From Bryobacterales bacterium (lineage in GTDB: Bacteria; Acidobacteriota; Terriglobia; Bryobacterales; Bryobacteraceae), in assembly GCA_003164075.1 (NCBI GenBank), contig PLRZ01000166.1, forward strand, positions 26,316 through 33,421: DNA of 7,106 nucleotides. Direction: 5' to 3'. Each line of letters starts with the position of its first letter. Position 1 is the stretch's first letter. This document shows, one piece after another, positions 1 to 6,659 of this stretch. The notes under the pieces were generated by a model that saw only the letters and a list, made by a program, of their open reading frames with translations, made no database searches and was not told the origin of the DNA. Made by a program: the position numbers and the translations under genes.

Positions 1-419
1 GCCGCGGCGGCGAGAGTGGTGGTGGTGTTGGGATTTTCGGGATTGAGCTGAGGCGCTTGCTCGTGCACCACGATGCTCTCGCTCGCGGATGCAATGTTGA
101 GCTTCAAATCGACCGTTTGGGTCAGCCCGAGACCGGCCGTTACCGCTCGATTCTCACGTGCTTCAAAGCGGTTTGCCTCCGCTCTGACGGAATAGATTCC
201 CGGCTTCAGTTGGGGAAAGCCATAGCGCCCTGCGTCGTCCGTTTTGACGGAGCGTTTCATGCCATTGTCGCTGCTGGTAATGGTCACGGTGGCCGCGGGG
301 ATCGCGGCGCCGGCGGGGTCGGTGACCGAGCCGGCGATGGCGCTGGTGGTCTCGCCCTGCGCCATGGCGCGAAGGCAGAAGAGCAGCATGGCCAAAACTC
401 CATACCCGATTTTAGGCAT
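1..419 (-). CDS. TonB-type outer-membrane receptor, N-terminal part (runs off the left edge)
   Basis: The reading frame is open from an ATG at 419 to the window edge (139 codons seen) with no stop. It begins MPKIGYGVLAMLLFCLRAMA, a Sec signal peptide with Lys3, a hydrophobic core and an AMA/Q cleavage site near residue 20. Residues about 26-110 form a carboxypeptidase-regulatory-like beta-sandwich domain: the pattern AGSVTDPAGAAIPAATVTI, then DDAGRYGFPQLKPGIYSV, then VDLKLNI is diagnostic. The SESIVVHEQAP stretch after it is the usual link to a TonB plug domain. In Acidobacteriota such proteins are very large outer-membrane receptors for uptake of bulky or chelated substrates; the substrate cannot be read here. 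An alternative start, Met11 at 389, has a better GGAG ribosome site 8 bases upstream but would destroy the signal peptide, so 419 is preferred. It is divergent from a DtxR-type repressor, which suggests metal-dependent control. Family call fairly sure; plug and barrel are not in view. Confidence 0.85.
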   Translation of the reverse strand, partial: MPKIGYGVLAMLLFCLRAMAQGETTSAIAGSVTDPAGAAIPAATVTITSSDNGMKRSVKTDDAGRYGFPQLKPGIYSVRAEANRFEARENRAVTAGLGLTQTVDLKLNIASASESIVVHEQAPQLNPENPNTTTTLAAA

Positions 420-426
420 GCCTAAA
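411..426. promoter_or_regulatory. Putative DtxR/MntR-type operator (perfect palindrome)
   Basis: TTTAGGCATGCCTAAA is a perfect 16-bp palindrome. Its half-sites TTAGG and CCTAA match those of the DtxR/IdeR operator family (established knowledge). It lies over the receptor start codon and the downstream edge of its -10 box, in the divergent region shared with the DtxR-family gene at 491. Inference: metal-loaded repressor binds here and shuts the receptor off. Confidence 0.7.
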
Positions 427-453
427 TATATCTGTGATGCCGCTTCGTGTCAA
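425..453 (-). promoter_or_regulatory. Sigma-70-type promoter of the outer-membrane receptor gene
   Basis: On the minus strand a perfect -35 TTGACA (453-448) is followed by a 17-base spacer and a -10 TATATT (430-425). The expected RNA start is about 418-419, that is, at the receptor's own ATG. The message would therefore be leaderless, or translation would begin at the inner ATG at 389. The -10 box overlaps the palindromic operator at 411-426 by two bases and abuts the rest of it, so a bound repressor would block the promoter. Confidence 0.75.
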
Positions 454-477
454 GTTGCTCCAGTCGAGGAAGCAGGG

Positions 478-502
478 TAGGCTAATATTAGTGCATCCTA
501 AA
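478..502. promoter_or_regulatory. Second, degenerate DtxR-type operator over the repressor start codon
   Basis: ATTAGTGCATCCTAAA (487-502) keeps TTAG and CTAA half-sites separated by 6 bases, exactly the spacing of the perfect palindrome at 411-426. It is preceded by TAGGCTAA (478-485), and the two overlap a 10-bp palindrome CTAATATTAG (482-491). The GTG start of the DtxR-family gene (491) falls inside it. This suggests autoregulation. A weak plus-strand promoter, TTGCTC (455-460), 17 bases, TAGGCT (478-483), would place the RNA start near 490, also under this site. Confidence 0.5.
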
Positions 503-1315
503 TCAGCGGGGCCTCATAATACTGAATCGGTCGACGACTACCTGAAAGCCATCCTGGAACTGGGCGGGGCGGAAGAGGAACTGGTAGCCGGCACCGCTCT
601 CGCCCGGCATCTTGGCATCCGTGCCGCTTCGGTGACCGGGATGCTGCAAAAGTTGGCCGCACAAAAGCCACCTTTTGTGAAGTATGAAAAGCACCGTGGC
701 GCGCGTTTGACGACTGCCGGGAAGATGCGCGCTCTGGAGGTGCTTCGCCATCATCGGTTGCTGGAGCGCTTCCTCCACGATATCTTGGATTACCCGTGGG
801 ACGAAGTCCACGATGAGGCCGAACGGCTGGAGCATTTCATCTCCGAACGTCTGGAAGATCGCATCGCGGCAAAATTAGGGGACCCTGAAACGGATCCTCA
901 CGGTCACCCGATTCCGGAGCGTAACGGCGCGCTGCCGGCCCGCAAAGAGGTGTTGTTGTCCAACTGGGCCTGTGGCATGCCGGCGGTGATCAGCAGCGTG
1001 TCGGACCGCGACCCAGCGGCTCTACGTGAGATGAAACGGCTGGGATTGAAGCCCGGCGTGGCCCTCATGGTAGAAGCGGGAACGCGCGATCGCTCGCTGC
1101 GGATTCGAACGGGCAACTGCGCGGAGCCGGTGCGTTTGAGTCAGGCACTCGCTGCCGGAATCTCGGTAATCGCGGGTGGTTCGGGGCTCACCACAAATTC
1201 CACGACATCGGGAGTTCGGAGTGTCAACGCCGGGGACACGAATGTTCGCGCCAACGAAGGTGGGGCAGGCGGTGCTCGCCTTCGCTCGCTCCGGAGCTCT
1301 CACCTGGGGCGGTGA
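491..1315 (+). CDS. DtxR/MntR-family metal-dependent transcriptional repressor with FeoA-like C-terminal domain and an unusual tail
   Basis: A cytoplasmic repressor expected to bind DNA when loaded with Mn(II) or Fe(II). Numbered from GTG 491 (274 aa): winged helix about 14-76, with SVDDYLKAILEL and the recognition segment ASVTGMLQKL; dimerisation/metal domain about 77-135; SH3/FeoA-like domain about 160-228. The visible metal ligands match the family: Asp16, His88, Glu92, His107, Glu111, Glu114, His115. Position 111 is Glu where DtxR/IdeR have Cys102, and Asp16 replaces Met10; both are MntR-like choices, so manganese (or mixed) sensing is inferred. The frame is open back to GTG 434/ATG 437, but those extra 19 residues are not family-like and cover the divergent promoter. 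AGGGTAGG, ending 9 bases before 491, can serve as ribosome site. The last ~46 residues (Gly229 onward, rich in Gly, Thr, Arg) are not part of the family fold and come from repeat-like DNA. Confidence 0.88.
   Translation: MHPKSAGPHNTESVDDYLKAILELGGAEEELVAGTALARHLGIRAASVTGMLQKLAAQKPPFVKYEKHRGARLTTAGKMRALEVLRHHRLLERFLHDILDYPWDEVHDEAERLEHFISERLEDRIAAKLGDPETDPHGHPIPERNGALPARKEVLLSNWACGMPAVISSVSDRDPAALREMKRLGLKPGVALMVEAGTRDRSLRIRTGNCAEPVRLSQALAAGISVIAGGSGLTTNSTTSGVRSVNAGDTNVRANEGGAGGARLRSLRSSHLGR
1208..1312. repeat. Candidate dispersed repeat that forms the 3' end of the repressor gene
   Basis: From about 1208 the sequence loses the codon character of the repressor and becomes dense in short inverted motifs: GCTCCGGAGC (1288-1297, perfect palindrome), TCACC/GGTGA arms around 1299-1315, and GCAGGCGGTGC (1265-1275), which recurs inverted at 1375-1385. 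It reads in the repressor frame to a TGA at 1313-1315. It resembles interspersed intergenic repeats of large Acidobacteriota genomes, but that is recollection and not a search result. Confidence 0.35.
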
Positions 1316-1532: not shown

Positions 1533-3242
1533 CTAAACCAATTCCAGGTCGATGCGTTTTCCCGCGGCGTCCAGTTTCACGATGCGGAAGCTGCGAATCT
1601 GGCCGGAACGAGGGGCCTCGCGGCGGGCGGCTCCGCTTCCCTGGCCGCCTTTCCACTTGGTTTGCAGCATGGAAGTAAGCGACGAAAGATCCACCTTCGG
1701 ATCGGCGGCCTTCTCGGCTTTTTCCGGTGCTTCGCCGCTCAACCGGCAGAAAGCCGAAATGCCTTCGCCCAGCTCCACGCGAGCGCGTCCGCCGGAAACA
1801 TCCGTCATGCGGCCCGTCACTATGTTGCCTTCCTTGTGCTCGGCGATGTATTCGTCCAGGCTGGTGGGCACCAGTTGCTTCATGCCCAAACGCAGACGCC
1901 GCTTCTCGGAATCGATTTCCAGAACCTGCGCCTTCACAATCTGGCCCTGCTTGAGGGCATCCTGCGGATGGTTGAGGCGCTTTTCGGCGCTGATGTCGCC
2001 CACGTGGATCATGCCTTCCACGCCCTCGGCAAGCTGCACAAAGGCGCCGAAATTAGTCATGCTGACCACCGGACCTTCCACTACCGATCCGGGGGGGAAT
2101 TTCTCCTGGATCCCGGCCCAGGGATCGCCCAGCGCCTGCTTGAGCCCCAGCGAAATGCGGCGGTCCCCCTGGTTTACGCCCAGGATGACCACGTCCACCT
2201 GCTCGCCCGGTTTGACGATCTCGGAAGCCTTCTTCATCTTCTTCGACCAGGACATTTCGGACACGTGGATCAGCCCTTCCACACCCTTGTCGAGTTCCAC
2301 GAAAGCGCCGAATTCGGCGACCCGCGTGACCGTACCCTGCACGCGATCGCCCACCTTGTACTTCTCGTTCACCAGTTCCCAGGGGTGGGGCAGCAGTTGC
2401 TTCATGCCCACCGAAATGCGCCGCTTGGCAGCATCCACCTTGAGGACTTTGACCTGCACTTGTTGCCCGGCGGTGAGCGCATCTGCCGGCTTGTTGATCC
2501 GGCTCCAGGAAATGTCGGCCACATGTAACAGCGCGTCCACCCCGCCGATATCGACGAAAGCGCCGAAATCGGTGAGACTGCGCACCGTCGCCTGCATGAT
2601 TTCGCCTTCTTTGATTTCGGTATAGCGGCGCTCTTTGGTGGCGCGTTCGTCGTCTTCCAACACCGCGCGGCGGTCCACCACCACGTCTTCATCCGCCACG
2701 TCGAGCTTGATGATGCGGCAGCGGATTTCCTGGCCGATGAGCTTCTCCATCTCGGCCGCGTCTTTCGCGCCGCTGCGGGACGCGGGCATGAAAGCGCGCA
2801 CCCCGATATCCACGGAAACGCCGCCCTTCACGACGGCCGATATCGTTCCGGCGATGGCGGCTTTATCGGCGAAAGCCTTCTCCAGCGACGACCAGTCCTT
2901 GGGACGTTCCACCTTGATCCGCGACAGCTCGTAATAGCCCTCGGGGTCGCGGCCTTTGATGGATACGGGCATCTTGTCGCCGGGTTTCACCGGTTCTCCG
3001 GCGGCCTGGAATTCGGCAACCGGAATAATGCCCTCGATCTTGTAGCCGATATCCAGGAAAACGGATTCTCCGGAGATCGCGATCACAGTGCCTTCCAGTC
3101 CCTTCCCGCCTTCGTCGGGTTTGTGCTTATGGGACTGTTCGTACTGGGAGAGAATATCGCCGAATGACTCGGCGGAGTCGTTGGTGGTCTGGGATCCGGG
3201 GCGCGCAGCCGGGTCCTGATCCAGAATGCTTGGGTTGGCCAT
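1533..3242 (-). CDS. rpsA: 30S ribosomal protein S1
   Basis: Binds mRNA on the small ribosomal subunit and helps load it at initiation. The 569-aa protein has six S1 (OB-fold) domains at about 47-112, 129-195, 212-282, 297-369, 384-456 and 471-568. Domains 3-5 carry the strong repeat pattern FGAFV.L..GVEG(L/M)IHV.(E/D)(M/I)S and end in RRISVGMKQL-type strands, as expected. Domains 1-2 are diverged ribosome-docking domains. The sixth is odd: after AFCRLSGEAPE there are about 40 low-complexity, charged residues (503-546) before the closing strand RIVKLDAAGKRIDLEL. The frame opens at an ATG at 3266, but the ATG at 3242 is chosen because a GGAG site lies just before it and the eight extra residues are unlike S1 starts. 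It follows the toxin-antitoxin pair on the same strand with a 64-base gap. No rho-independent terminator is seen after the stop. Length is close to the usual 550-580. Confidence 0.97.
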   Translation of the reverse strand: MANPSILDQDPAARPGSQTTNDSAESFGDILSQYEQSHKHKPDEGGKGLEGTVIAISGESVFLDIGYKIEGIIPVAEFQAAGEPVKPGDKMPVSIKGRDPEGYYELSRIKVERPKDWSSLEKAFADKAAIAGTISAVVKGGVSVDIGVRAFMPASRSGAKDAAEMEKLIGQEIRCRIIKLDVADEDVVVDRRAVLEDDERATKERRYTEIKEGEIMQATVRSLTDFGAFVDIGGVDALLHVADISWSRINKPADALTAGQQVQVKVLKVDAAKRRISVGMKQLLPHPWELVNEKYKVGDRVQGTVTRVAEFGAFVELDKGVEGLIHVSEMSWSKKMKKASEIVKPGEQVDVVILGVNQGDRRISLGLKQALGDPWAGIQEKFPPGSVVEGPVVSMTNFGAFVQLAEGVEGMIHVGDISAEKRLNHPQDALKQGQIVKAQVLEIDSEKRRLRLGMKQLVPTSLDEYIAEHKEGNIVTGRMTDVSGGRARVELGEGISAFCRLSGEAPEKAEKAADPKVDLSSLTSMLQTKWKGGQGSGAARREAPRSGQIRSFRIVKLDAAGKRIDLELV

Positions 3243-3252
3243 GAGACGGTAT

Positions 3253-3306: not shown

Positions 3307-3639
3307 TCAGCCCGCCTTTCGTTCTTCGCGTTCGGTGAGCGTCTCGTGCAGCAGTGACTTGATGTACGTCTGGTATGGCAGCCCTTTCCGCTCGGCCTGC
3401 TTTCGAGCTAGAGCCAGGTCCGCGGCCGGAATTCGCAAAGCCACTACCGGCGCCGGCTTCTTCTTCGACGCTTCAATCCGCGCCAGCAGTTTCTCCTTCG
3501 TAAGAATCCGGGCTTCGCCGCTCTTGACGGCCGCGGTGAAGATCCGGTCGTGAGCCTTGCGGTTCTTGAACCACCATTCGGCTTCTTCGGCTTCTGTTGC
3601 GAACTTCGGTACGGTGATGCGATTCGTTTCCTTCTTCAT
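3307..3639 (-). CDS. CopG/BrnA-type antitoxin of a type II toxin-antitoxin system
   Basis: A 110-aa protein expected to bind and neutralise the BrnT-type toxin encoded just upstream and to repress their shared promoter. Residues 10-40 (VPKFATEAEEAEWWFKNR) match the N-terminal region of the CopG-antitoxin family (PF12441 type), which wraps the toxin. Residues about 66-101 form a ribbon-helix-helix DNA-binding domain: the strand VVALRIPAADLALARKQAER, then GLPYQTYIKSLLHETL. A Lys-rich linker (59-62) joins the two. Its ATG (3639) overlaps the toxin's TGA in the classic ATGA arrangement, so translation is probably coupled. Gene order (toxin first) is that of brnTA loci. Called antitoxin from both sequence and position; membership in the CopG branch rather than strict BrnA is the less certain part. 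Confidence 0.85.
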   Translation of the reverse strand: MKKETNRITVPKFATEAEEAEWWFKNRKAHDRIFTAAVKSGEARILTKEKLLARIEASKKKPAPVVALRIPAADLALARKQAERKGLPYQTYIKSLLHETLTEREERKAG

Positions 3640-3917
3640 CTGCGTCTCTCCAGAAAATCCTTCTTGTTTGAAGCGCTGGCCGGAAACGCGGTAACGGCGC
3701 GGATCTTGCCGGACCGAATGGTGTAGACCGCCAGCAGCAATCGGCCTCCATCCGTCAGGCCAACGGCGCGGTACCGTTCTTCGTTGTCAACCACTTCGCA
3801 GTCCAGGTCCAACGGATCATTGTCGATCGCCTCCTCGAATTGGGACCGCTTTACCTTGTGGGCGGCCAGGTGCTTCGTGTTCTCGTCGTCCCAATCGAAT
3901 TCGATTGCGTTGGCCAC
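3636..3917 (-). CDS. brnT: BrnT-family toxin (RelE-like ribonuclease)
   Basis: BrnT toxins are small RelE-fold proteins that stop growth by cleaving mRNA. From GTG 3917 the product is 93 aa, the family's normal size. Family landmarks: the FDWDDENTKHLAAHKV opening (usual form F.WD..K...N...HGV), FEEA at 27-30, DPL at 34-36, EERYRAVGL at 46-54, the strand GRLLLAVYT at 58-66, and the closing IRAVTAFPAS (72-81). The last motif usually reads RIISAR.A; here the Arg is replaced by Phe78, and the Gly of HGV is Lys21, so activity may be altered. The frame is open much farther upstream (to about 4199), but that part crosses the promoter and the divergent kinase gene and is rejected. There is no clear ribosome site; the promoter at 3928-3956 would give a leader of only a few bases. 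Confidence 0.82.
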   Translation of the reverse strand: MANAIEFDWDDENTKHLAAHKVKRSQFEEAIDNDPLDLDCEVVDNEERYRAVGLTDGGRLLLAVYTIRSGKIRAVTAFPASASNKKDFLERRR

Positions 3918-3927
3918 TGTTGGTACG

Positions 3928-4059: not shown

Positions 4060-5313
4060 GTGCCTGTCGACCTTTTTCGCCGTTGGATCCAGCTCATCCG
4101 CCCCCAGGATCTGGTGTGGCTGGTGGTTTTTGCCCTCGCGCTGGTCAGTTGCGAATACGGCGACGCATTCGAAATCGCACCGCTGGTGGCGCTTGGCATC
4201 GCTCAGATTCTGGAGCCTAAGGTGCCTGCCACCCCGACAACCGGGAGCCGGCTCTTCTGGATCGTGCTGAAGCTGGCTTTGAGTTTCGTGTTGATTGGCT
4301 ATGGTGGCGGCATCAACAGCCGGTATTGGCCGGCATTGCTGCTGCCGGTGGTGTCGGCAGCCACCACGTTCGGTTTCCTGGGCGCCATGGTTTTCACTCT
4401 GCTGACCTGCGCGGCGTACCTGGTATTTCTCAGCTTTGTGACGGCGGCCAAACCCGTCACTGTCGACCTGGAACTGCGCCTGGTATGTCTGATTGTCACC
4501 GGCAACCTGGCCAACACTCTGGCGCAGGACCTGCGCGTGCAGTCGGAAAAGCACCGCCGCGCGGCGGAGCAACTCGTGGACGCCAACCTGCACCTTCGGC
4601 AGGCCGAGGAGGCCGTGCGCCGTTCCGAGCGGCTGGCGGCGCTGGGCCAACTCACCGCCGGACTGGCTCACGAGCTGCGCAATCCGCTGGGCACCATCAA
4701 AGCGTCGGCGGAACTGCTGCAGCGCAACGTCAGCGCCGAAAATGAAGTCAGCCGGGAAATGGCCGGCTTCATCGCCTCCGAAGTGGACCGCACCAACTCG
4801 CTGGTCACGCGCTTCCTGCAATTCGCCCGCCCGCTGGAGTTGCGCCGCGACAATGCCGACCTGGGCCGGACGCTCGACCGCGCCATCGCCCAGGTGGAAC
4901 GCGAAGCCAAAGGAGCGGCCATCTACAAGAACTACGCGCCCGAGATTGCGCCCTTCCCCTTCGACGCCGAACTCATGGAACGCGTCTTCTACAACCTGAT
5001 TCTCAATGCCGTACAGGCATCGCCCGCGGGCGGAGCGGTCAGCGTGAAAACGCGTCCGGCCGCGGGAGCCGTGGAAATCGCGGTGATCGACCGCGGCGTG
5101 GGCATCGAGCCCCAACAGCGCGACTCCATCTTCAATCCCTTCTTCACCACCAAGCCGGAGGGCGTGGGCTTGGGGCTGGCCATCGTTTCCAAGATCGTCG
5201 ACGAACACGGCGGTAAGATAACAGTGGAGAGCGATCCGGGGAAGGGCAGCGTGTTCCACGTGCGGTTGCCGAACTCGGGCGAACTCCCCTCCGCACCGGC
5301 GGGTTCCACATGA
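4060..5313 (+). CDS. Membrane-bound NtrB-type sensor histidine kinase
   Basis: Autophosphorylates on His and passes phosphate to the NtrC-type regulator encoded next. 417 aa from GTG 4060. Residues about 18-155 hold roughly six hydrophobic segments (near 18-34, 38-52, 66-84, 89-107, 109-128, 138-155) with almost no loops, so the input domain is the membrane itself and not a periplasmic sensor. A charged coiled coil follows (about 156-192). HisKA domain: LGQLTAGLAHELRNPLG with phosphoacceptor His204. HATPase: N box NLILNAVQA (Asn316), G1 box DRGVGIEP (344-351), F box FNPFFTTKPEG (358-368), G2 box VGLGLAIV (369-376), all intact. The frame is open upstream to 3784, but that stretch is antisense to the toxin gene and has no kinase features; GTG 4060 is the only reasonable start after the promoter. 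The stop overlaps the regulator's ATG (ATGA). The signal sensed is unknown. Confidence 0.93.
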   Translation: MPVDLFRRWIQLIRPQDLVWLVVFALALVSCEYGDAFEIAPLVALGIAQILEPKVPATPTTGSRLFWIVLKLALSFVLIGYGGGINSRYWPALLLPVVSAATTFGFLGAMVFTLLTCAAYLVFLSFVTAAKPVTVDLELRLVCLIVTGNLANTLAQDLRVQSEKHRRAAEQLVDANLHLRQAEEAVRRSERLAALGQLTAGLAHELRNPLGTIKASAELLQRNVSAENEVSREMAGFIASEVDRTNSLVTRFLQFARPLELRRDNADLGRTLDRAIAQVEREAKGAAIYKNYAPEIAPFPFDAELMERVFYNLILNAVQASPAGGAVSVKTRPAAGAVEIAVIDRGVGIEPQQRDSIFNPFFTTKPEGVGLGLAIVSKIVDEHGGKITVESDPGKGSVFHVRLPNSGELPSAPAGST

Positions 5314-6659
5314 AAAAGCGCATCCTGGTAGTGGAAGACGAAGAAAAACTGCGCCGCGTGATCGAGCTGCAACTGGTCTCGGCCGGCTTCGACGTGGACA
5401 AAGCGGCCACCGCCGAGGACGGGCTCAAGATCGTGGACCGGGCCGACATGGTGCTCACCGATCTGAAGCTGCCCAACATGGACGGTTTGCAGTTCCTGGG
5501 CTTGATCCGCCGGCAGAACTCGCAGGTGCCGGTGGTGATGATGACGGCCTATGGCACGGTGGAGACCGCGGTGGAATCCATGAAGGCGGGGGCCACCGAT
5601 TTTCTGCTCAAGCCGTTCTCGCTCGATCACCTGATGCAGGTGGTCCACAAAGCGCTCGAAATGCGCGCCCTGCGCGATGAGAATCGCCAGCTCAAGGCGG
5701 AACTGGGACGGCGCTACGAGTTCGACAATATCATTGGCCGCAGCCCCGCGATGCAGGAAATCTTCGACACCATCGAGCGGGTGGCGCCTACCCGTGCTAC
5801 CGTACTGCTGGCCGGCGAGAGCGGGGTGGGCAAAGACCTGGTGGCCCGCGCCATCCACTTCCATTCGCCGCGCCGCGACCGGCCGCTGGTAAAGATCAAC
5901 TGCACCGCCATCCCCGAAAACCTGATGGAGAGCGAATTATTCGGCTACGAGAAAGGCGCGTTCACGGGCGCCAACACCACCAAGCCGGGCAAATTCGAAC
6001 AGGCCGACACCGGCACGGTCTTTCTCGACGAGATTGGCGACGTTCCGGGCCCTATCCAGGTGAAGCTGCTGCGCGTGCTGCAGGAGCGCGAATTCGAACG
6101 CCTCGGCAGCAACGTGACGCGCCACATCGACGTGCGCGTGATCGCGGCCACCAACCAGGACCTGCGCGCGGCGCTGGAACAGGGAACCTTCCGCCAGGAT
6201 CTGTATTACCGCCTGAACGTGGTGCCGCTGAACATTCCGTCGCTGCGCGAGCGCAAGCAGGACATTCCTTTCTTGGCCAACCATTTCGTGAAGAAGCTCG
6301 CGCCCGATGCGGGATGCCGCGTGGAATCCATCACCGACGCCGCCATGGAGAAGCTGACGGCCTACCATTGGCCCGGCAACGTGCGCGAACTGGAGAACGT
6401 GATCGAGCGCAGCCTGGTGATGGCCAAAGGCACGGCGCTGGACGCCGCGGACATCAAACTGGAGAGTGCGCCGCGGGTGAAACCGCAGAACGAGACGCAT
6501 TTTCTGCCCGAAGGAATGAGCCTGGATGCCTATGAGCAGGAGATTATTCGCGAGGCGCTGCGCAGGGCCGACGGCAATAAGAGCCAGGCCGCGCGCATGT
6601 TAGGGCTCACGCGAAATGCGCTGCGCTACCGGCTGACGCAGATGGGCCTGGAATCGTAG
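5310..6659 (+). CDS. NtrC-family sigma-54-dependent response regulator
   Basis: An enhancer-binding activator that opens sigma-54 promoters when phosphorylated. 449 aa in three domains. Receiver about 3-120: acidic pocket Glu9/Asp10/Glu11, phosphoacceptor Asp51 (VLTDLKLPNMDG), switch Thr79 and Lys101 in LLKPF. AAA+ domain about 140-370: Walker A GESGVGKD (169-176), sigma-54 loop GAFTGA (216-221), Walker B VFLDE with Asp240/Glu241, then sensor motifs including AATNQDLR and WPGNVRELENVIERS. Fis-type helix-turn-helix at 422-449, NKSQAARMLGLTRNALRYRL. All catalytic residues are present, so it should be a true ATPase activator. Length is typical. Its ATG overlaps the kinase stop by 4 bases and no strong ribosome site precedes it, so translation is probably coupled. 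No sigma-54 promoter was found in this window; targets are elsewhere. AtoC/ZraR/NtrC subgroups cannot be separated from sequence alone. Confidence 0.96.
   Translation: MKKRILVVEDEEKLRRVIELQLVSAGFDVDKAATAEDGLKIVDRADMVLTDLKLPNMDGLQFLGLIRRQNSQVPVVMMTAYGTVETAVESMKAGATDFLLKPFSLDHLMQVVHKALEMRALRDENRQLKAELGRRYEFDNIIGRSPAMQEIFDTIERVAPTRATVLLAGESGVGKDLVARAIHFHSPRRDRPLVKINCTAIPENLMESELFGYEKGAFTGANTTKPGKFEQADTGTVFLDEIGDVPGPIQVKLLRVLQEREFERLGSNVTRHIDVRVIAATNQDLRAALEQGTFRQDLYYRLNVVPLNIPSLRERKQDIPFLANHFVKKLAPDAGCRVESITDAAMEKLTAYHWPGNVRELENVIERSLVMAKGTALDAADIKLESAPRVKPQNETHFLPEGMSLDAYEQEIIREALRRADGNKSQAARMLGLTRNALRYRLTQMGLES

Follow-up and report, generated by a model that had tools for sequence, protein, structure and literature searches.

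A predicted metal-responsive switch with start-codon-embedded operators at a divergent receptor and DtxR-family gene pair of Acidobacteriota

The window (the whole 7,106-bp stretch of acidobacterial DNA analyzed here) begins with two divergently oriented genes, one for an outer-membrane receptor and one for a DtxR-family repressor, whose start codons are separated by a 71-bp gap with one palindrome at each end. The features of this region are as follows.

3-419, minus strand: first 139 codons (5′ part) of a gene for a probable Oar-like TonB-dependent receptor, which runs off the window
411-426: predicted operator 1, TTTAGGCATGCCTAAA, a perfect 16-bp palindrome that covers codons 1-3 of the receptor and its predicted transcription start and reaches into the end of its -10 box
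425-430, minus strand: predicted receptor -10 box TATATT (promoter scan), its first T 11 nt before the ATG
448-453, minus strand: predicted receptor -35 box TTGACA (promoter scan)
455-460, plus strand: proposed weak dtxR -35 box TTGCTC, read by eye and absent from the promoter scan listing
478-483, plus strand: proposed dtxR -10 box TAGGCT, read by eye, 13 nt before the GTG
487-502: predicted operator 2, ATTAGTGCATCCTAAA, a degenerate copy lying over the GTG start codon of dtxR
491-1315, plus strand: dtxR, encoding a DtxR/MntR-family protein, a predicted metal-dependent repressor (GTG start, 274 aa) with HTH, metal-binding/dimerisation and FeoA domains

The initial annotation had described a perfect palindrome over the -10 edge and start codon of the receptor gene and a degenerate copy over the start of the divergent dtxR, and both descriptions are accurate. 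Operator 1 is exact at 411-426 and encloses the receptor start codon (419-417, minus strand), from which it encodes ATG CCT AAA (M-P-K); operator 2, at 487-502, contains the GTG at 491-493. When up to three mismatches are allowed, TTTAGGCATGCCTAAA has a single match in the 7,106-bp window, where a mean of 0.01 is expected (200 shuffles, two of which held one match). The pattern TTAG-N6-CTAA fits both operators, at 412-425 and 488-501, and these are its only two matches in the window, against 0.01 expected and none of 200 shuffles with two. The longest dtxR reading frame begins further upstream, at 434; the start is placed at 491 because the alignment of relatives begins there. On the receptor side, the promoter scan finds TTGACA-17-TATATT at 453-425 of the minus strand, which agrees with the consensus at 11 of 12 bases, and a poorer match at 438-409; operator 1 shares the last two bases of the stronger match's -10 box.

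The receptor is represented in the window by its N-terminal part only, with a CarboxypepD_reg domain (PF13620, 74 bits) and a signal peptide recognized by inspection; a full-length homolog at locus L002 carries the PF25183 outer-membrane barrel. Downstream of dtxR and convergent with it lies a gene for a protein with six S1 RNA-binding domains (1533-3248, minus strand), from which it follows that dtxR is probably transcribed alone. The remainder of the window holds a CopG-type antitoxin and a BrnT-type ribonuclease toxin gene (3307-3639 and 3636-3920, minus strand) that resemble a toxin-antitoxin pair, a histidine kinase followed by an NtrC-type sigma-54 response regulator (4060-6659, plus strand) and a small protein of the dinitrogenase iron-molybdenum cofactor family (PF02579; 6665-7015, minus strand). 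A search for plasmid relatives of positions 300-620 of the window gave no match at E 1e-5.

A profile search of a species-level genome collection, with a 20-protein alignment as query, returned 80 loci, and 48 loci that were acidobacterial by record title together with the window make up a sample of 49 with a gene of this DtxR family (L059, titled ‘bacterium’, was counted as acidobacterial, its dtxR grouping with Acidobacteriaceae in the tree). The initial annotation had made its reading depend on conservation of the palindrome upstream of orthologous pairs; when this was examined, 44 of the 49 loci were found to keep a site with at most one mismatch upstream of dtxR (upstream window about 320-336 bp), a figure to be read as a footprint and not as 44 independent events since the loci are kin, so that binomial figures overstate independence. 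The exact sequence TTTAGG-N4-CCTAAA is present upstream at 20 of 49 loci and a site with at most two mismatches at 47, and elsewhere in the same loci no site with one mismatch or fewer occurs among 502,539 positions. The five loci lacking a site at the one-mismatch level are L005, L015, L030, L031, and L061, of which L005 and L031 have none at all. In the tree the window dtxR clusters with loci of Bryobacterales and Solibacteraceae, and P0080, a close match among database proteins, bears the name Bryobacteraceae. Seven Acidobacteriaceae-type loci (L046, L048, L053, L057, L059, L061, and L071) have two gap sites 21-23 bp apart, with up to three mismatches allowed; their repressor frame is shorter (163-173 aa in the four genomes checked), and GGAGG precedes dtxR in L061 and L071. 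Cultured species with the related two-site layout include Edaphobacter modestus and Bryocella elongata.

The genome-wide search for the site that the initial annotation had proposed was run on relatives. Across 22 genomes the exact TTTAGG-N4-CCTAAA occurs 10 times, nine of them at the dtxR locus, compared with 15 occurrences of the reversed control pattern; the relaxed TTTAG-N6-CTAAA occurs at 36 sites in 19 genomes, compared with 206 for its reversed control, a scarcity that may arise because stop codons, or CTA/TAG, are avoided. By contig and position, these 36 sites comprise 19 at dtxR loci, one at a lone receptor, two at the L081 and L157 places described below and 14 elsewhere. An argument from motif enrichment by genome-wide count was therefore rejected, exact sites being no commoner and relaxed sites rarer than the control, and it is location and not number that constitutes the evidence.

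When 257 genomes of the order were scanned for WTTAGSNATGCCTAAW, 47 places of the start-codon type emerged in 44 genomes (60 matches by strand vs 8 for the control), many of these genomes being common to this set and to the 49-locus sample. A dtxR start is no more than 450 bp away at 34 of the 47 places, of which 22 have an Oar-type receptor, three another receptor type, one a porin and eight neither. The other 13 comprise five beside a receptor alone (two at one receptor), one beside Nramp and seven elsewhere (L081, L157, L159, L170, L174, L179, and L188). A wide regulon was thus not found, only these seven of the 47 places lying away from dtxR, receptor and Nramp genes. In the ORF listing for L159, L170, L174, L179, and L188 no metal gene is evident. 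The palindrome is exact at L081:1501-1516, 18 bp upstream of a prephenate dehydratase gene, and a gene for a CarboxypepD_reg receptor follows at a short distance; L157, with one change at 1501-1516, is apparently the same neighborhood, and both genomes belong to the dtxR-Nramp lineage.

In relatives of the window, sites of this kind also stand at metal transporter genes. Seven loci (L020, L022, L023, and L026-L029) consist of dtxR and then an Nramp-type transporter gene with the operator in front of dtxR, and they form one clade within the receptor-type tree (99/98). The two loci with no site are explained by the presence of such operators elsewhere in their genomes, on Nramp or on a displaced receptor. 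In the L005 genome (G004), whose dtxR is sister to that of the window among the tree rows (97/85), dtxR has no site and the sequence TTTAGCC ATG CCT AAT instead takes in the start codon of an Nramp-Usp gene, the product of which passes the MntH cut-off (578 vs 430 bits); in the L031 genome (G051) dtxR again has no site and the receptor gene, located away from dtxR, bears two. A search of six genomes detected the receptor at 75-86% identity in G003, G001, and G051 and gave no receptor match at 1e-100 in G004, G014, or G015, the last two being dtxR-Nramp genomes (121 of 126 candidates were scored in G004 and 121 of 141 in G014). At L032 a Porin_O_P protein takes the place of the receptor (21.2 bits vs a cut-off of 20.9). 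Sites with at most two mismatches were found near three of 30 Nramp loci examined, from 68 Nramp matches. As a general target in receptor-type genomes Nramp is unsupported: the best Nramp gene in 15 such genomes has no nearby site, and so this repressor does not seem to control Nramp there.

Outside the acidobacterial sample, 32 loci come from Chloroflexota, Trueperaceae and a single unplaced bacterium; upstream of dtxR, 13 of them show a site with no more than one mismatch, and 11 of the 32 hold 12 further such sites. Three loci (L045, L072, and L077) have theirs before genes for ZnuA-family proteins of the ZnuA-type metal-binding kind. Some of the outlying Chloroflexota sites are not before metal importers; a one-mismatch site at L055:2962-2977, in Chloroflexota, precedes a multicopper oxidase gene, and some multicopper oxidases are manganese oxidases. 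Two further sites precede a DUF6796 gene (L066), two precede ORFs that look ABC ATPase-like by eye (L044 and L052), and four (L042, L043, L074, and L076) have no importer ORF listed.

To our knowledge, the Oar-like TonB receptors of Acidobacteriota are mostly without a known substrate, and a conserved metal operator would give one subfamily of them a testable substrate assignment. The pattern of sites suggests that the receptor of the window is metal-regulated and helps to bring in metal, most likely manganese; its probable cargo, imported across the outer membrane, is manganese or a chelate of it. From regulation by metal we infer transport of the metal, and a receptor that is metal-regulated could instead carry some other cargo, inward or outward, that is useful when metal is scarce. 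Consistent with such a role, the Oar-like receptor of L002 has no sequence relative among solved structures at E 0.01, and Oar of Myxococcus is needed for secretion of the PopC protease (PMC6434023, in part). However, the receptor slot in relatives is filled by different outer-membrane proteins, a porin included, and the same kind of site fronts Nramp or ZnuA-type genes, a combination that metal entry fits best; a different cargo is therefore possible but doubtful. The assignment of the receptor to metal transport made in the initial annotation thus gains indirect support, from the Nramp and ZnuA-type genes under the same kind of site.

Which metal is sensed is a related question. The window repressor has the domains of the DtxR/MntR family (PF01325, 43.2 bits, cut-off 26; PF02742, 105.2 bits, cut-off 27). 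Its best NCBIfam model is MntR NF047407 (Thermus type) at 189.3 bits, which is below the curated equivalog cut-off of 350 bits and for this reason the protein is called MntR-like only; the iron DtxR model scores 89 bits, also below its cut-off. Residue E111, which we take to occupy the position of DtxR C102, a key metal position, aligns with Cys in 7b24 (an actinobacterial iron sensor) and in 7b25, whereas 8pvt, 5zr4, and SloR also have Glu there. The Cys at the primary metal site that characterizes IdeR/DtxR iron sensors is thus absent, and the Glu trait of MntR-like sensors is present. At 274 aa the protein compares with 227-266 aa in 119 other listed homologs, its near-copy P0001 apart, and its C-terminal tail (about 1190-1315, plus strand) is mostly unmatched in alignment A1. 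Two DtxR-family matches are seen in 12 of 22 genomes, and a paralog could share the predicted sites.

On these features and the genes that the sites front, the repressor is most likely an MntR-like manganese sensor, with manganese a likelier metal than iron. The same switch could nevertheless have iron as its physiological metal, with an IdeR/DtxR-like sensor controlling a receptor for siderophores or iron chelates. The repressor belongs to the DtxR family and the TTAGG/CCTAA half-sites of operator 1 resemble what we take to be the half-sites of DtxR and IdeR; Nramp proteins can carry Fe(II). In addition, DR2539 of Deinococcus, a regulator of the same type, answers to both Mn(II) and Fe(II) (PMC3327659, in part), and the window repressor may possibly respond to Fe(II) too. 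Against iron stand the Glu where the iron sensor has Cys, the higher score of the MntR model (189 vs 89 bits, both below cut-off), the operator-bearing Nramp of the L005 genome, which passes the MntH cut-off, and, in other phyla, the three loci where a site stands before a gene for a ZnuA-type protein. Iron as the physiological metal is accordingly regarded as unlikely.

The palindrome encloses the divergent outer-membrane gene's start codon at 22 loci, so that part of the site is also coding sequence. The start triplets are ATG CCT AAA (13), ATG GCT AAA (5), ATG CCT AAT (3), and TTG CCT AAA (1), giving CCT (17) or GCT (5) at codon 2 and AAA (19) or AAT (3) at codon 3. In the rest of the same genes the shares are 0.117 for CCT among proline codons, 0.113 for GCT among alanine codons, 0.297 for AAA among lysine codons and 0.419 for AAT among asparagine codons, and these minority choices indicate that the DNA, and not the peptide alone, is under constraint. 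The palindromes of L009, L014, L018, and L041 stop 2-3 nt before the longest-ORF start and are non-coding by that start, hence retained as DNA. On the dtxR side, codon 3 ends in CT at 19 of 24 in-frame GTG-type starts, encoding P, T or S (background for T after C, 0.158), and AGA, which is codon 4 in six of the 24, accounts for 1.9% of Lys plus Arg codons in these genes. L019 and L035 do have the second site, but out of frame with dtxR; L019 was left out of the dtxR codon test (GTG out of frame), and minus-strand ‘embedded’ ORFs in L026 (247 aa) and L029 (271 aa), probably spurious overlaps, were left out of the counts.

The promoter positions bear on how an operator and a start codon might coexist. 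A published survey took TANNNT about 12 bp before the start codon as a sign of leaderless genes and placed the leaderless share in three Acidobacteria genomes at 13.3% of genes (PMC3160421, in part). The receptor gene of the window has this sign, with its first T at 11 nt, and TANNNT begins 10-12 nt before the receptor start at 17 of 22 loci, though not independently of the operator in full, since the element partly overlaps the operator's first Ts (its TA falls outside). TTGAC is found 33-38 nt before the receptor start at 11 of 22 loci. In random 45-mers of the same loci TANNNT is so placed in 1.2% and TTGAC in 0.4%, and TANNNT has leaderless spacing in 12 of 147 other long ORFs. Five loci (L012, L016, L032, L033, and L034) do not fit this spacing. 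On the dtxR side, TANNNT starts 14 nt before the start codon in 16 of 31 rows of the promoter listing. A Shine-Dalgarno-like word lies 7-15 nt before the receptor start at one of 22 loci; such words are also few in random stretches (7.7%) and in other long ORFs (23 of 147), so that their absence at the receptor adds little to the case. From promoter spacing, the receptor and dtxR mRNAs are predicted to be leaderless, probably both; for this reason an operator would be able to occupy the start codon and encode M-P-K at the receptor.

That the palindromes arose by chance or as a mere by-product of a conserved M-P-K peptide, a reading to which half of operator 1 being coding and the kinship of the loci lend some color, is rejected by the matched background and codon tests and can be given next to no credence, because the non-coding upstream half TTTAGG is conserved nonetheless, the codons are synonymous outliers at both receptor and dtxR starts, the palindrome is present but non-coding by the longest-ORF start in L009, L014, L018, and L041, and sites are also found at unrelated genes.

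The interpretation that we consider likely is an autoregulated, metal-responsive uptake switch, a reading that the initial annotation had anticipated and that has come through the comparative tests of conservation and codon bias. In this model the metal-loaded DtxR-family protein, presumably dimeric, would bind the two palindromes flanking the 71-bp gap, in which two proposed promoters stand back to back, each with its -10/+1/start-codon region under one predicted operator. Bound repressor would block RNA polymerase at receptor and dtxR alike; scarcity of metal would release it, allowing the receptor and more repressor to be made, and this autoregulation may keep the response proportionate. 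One short sequence would thereby serve repressor binding (the operator being predicted), transcription start and translation start, and the operator may act as a predictor of regulon members in genomes that are mostly uncultured.

A broader reading, for which we judge the chances evenly balanced, is that the manganese operator of this repressor clade serves as a start-codon cassette shifting from one leaderless gene to another, that the order has repeatedly switched which manganese-entry step is regulated, and that a subfamily of the unassigned Oar-like receptors of Acidobacteriota gains its first substrate class, manganese or its chelates. If this were true, the same 16 bp would be -10 edge, transcription start, start codon and codons 2-3 at once, carried in turn by a TonB receptor, a porin, an Nramp importer and the repressor itself.

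Among the closest known systems is DtxR of Corynebacterium diphtheriae (PMC5784534, in part). A study of trace metals in Granulicella reports mntH and mntR-like genes (PMC7315648, in part), and the word TonB has no occurrence in its main text. Titles and the beginnings of abstracts in the open-access literature, subscription journals being outside the scope, yielded no recognized instance of the same arrangement. Another relative is DR2539 of Deinococcus radiodurans. We take K19 of the window repressor to lie at the position of the DR2539 Lys and of MntR Glu11. DR2539, a Mn/Fe-dependent DtxR-family repressor of mntH, has this Lys where MntR has Glu11, and shares with the window protein the SH3-like C-terminal domain and action, predicted for the latter, through an inverted repeat (PMC3327659, in part). 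The likeness extends to the Nramp link, found here in relatives of the window locus; unlike DR2539, the window repressor has an outer-membrane receptor for a neighbor, and its predicted operators contain start codons.

In the TBDR-pTFP module of Stenotrophomonas maltophilia, too, a TonB-dependent receptor operon is preceded by a predicted site for a manganese repressor; the module differs in its CQNC-type receptor family and periplasmic thioredoxin-fold partner, and no start-codon-embedded operator was found in the part of the text examined (PMC13217887). MnoT of Burkholderia thailandensis, named in the same source and likened here by description, also mediates TonB-dependent uptake of manganese across the outer membrane and differs in pairing with a type VI secreted Mn-binding protein (PMC13217887, in part). 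MntR-controlled TonB receptors are thus already known in Proteobacteria (PMC13217887, in part); what sets the acidobacterial locus apart is the embedding of the predicted operators in the start codons of an MntR-like receptor switch.
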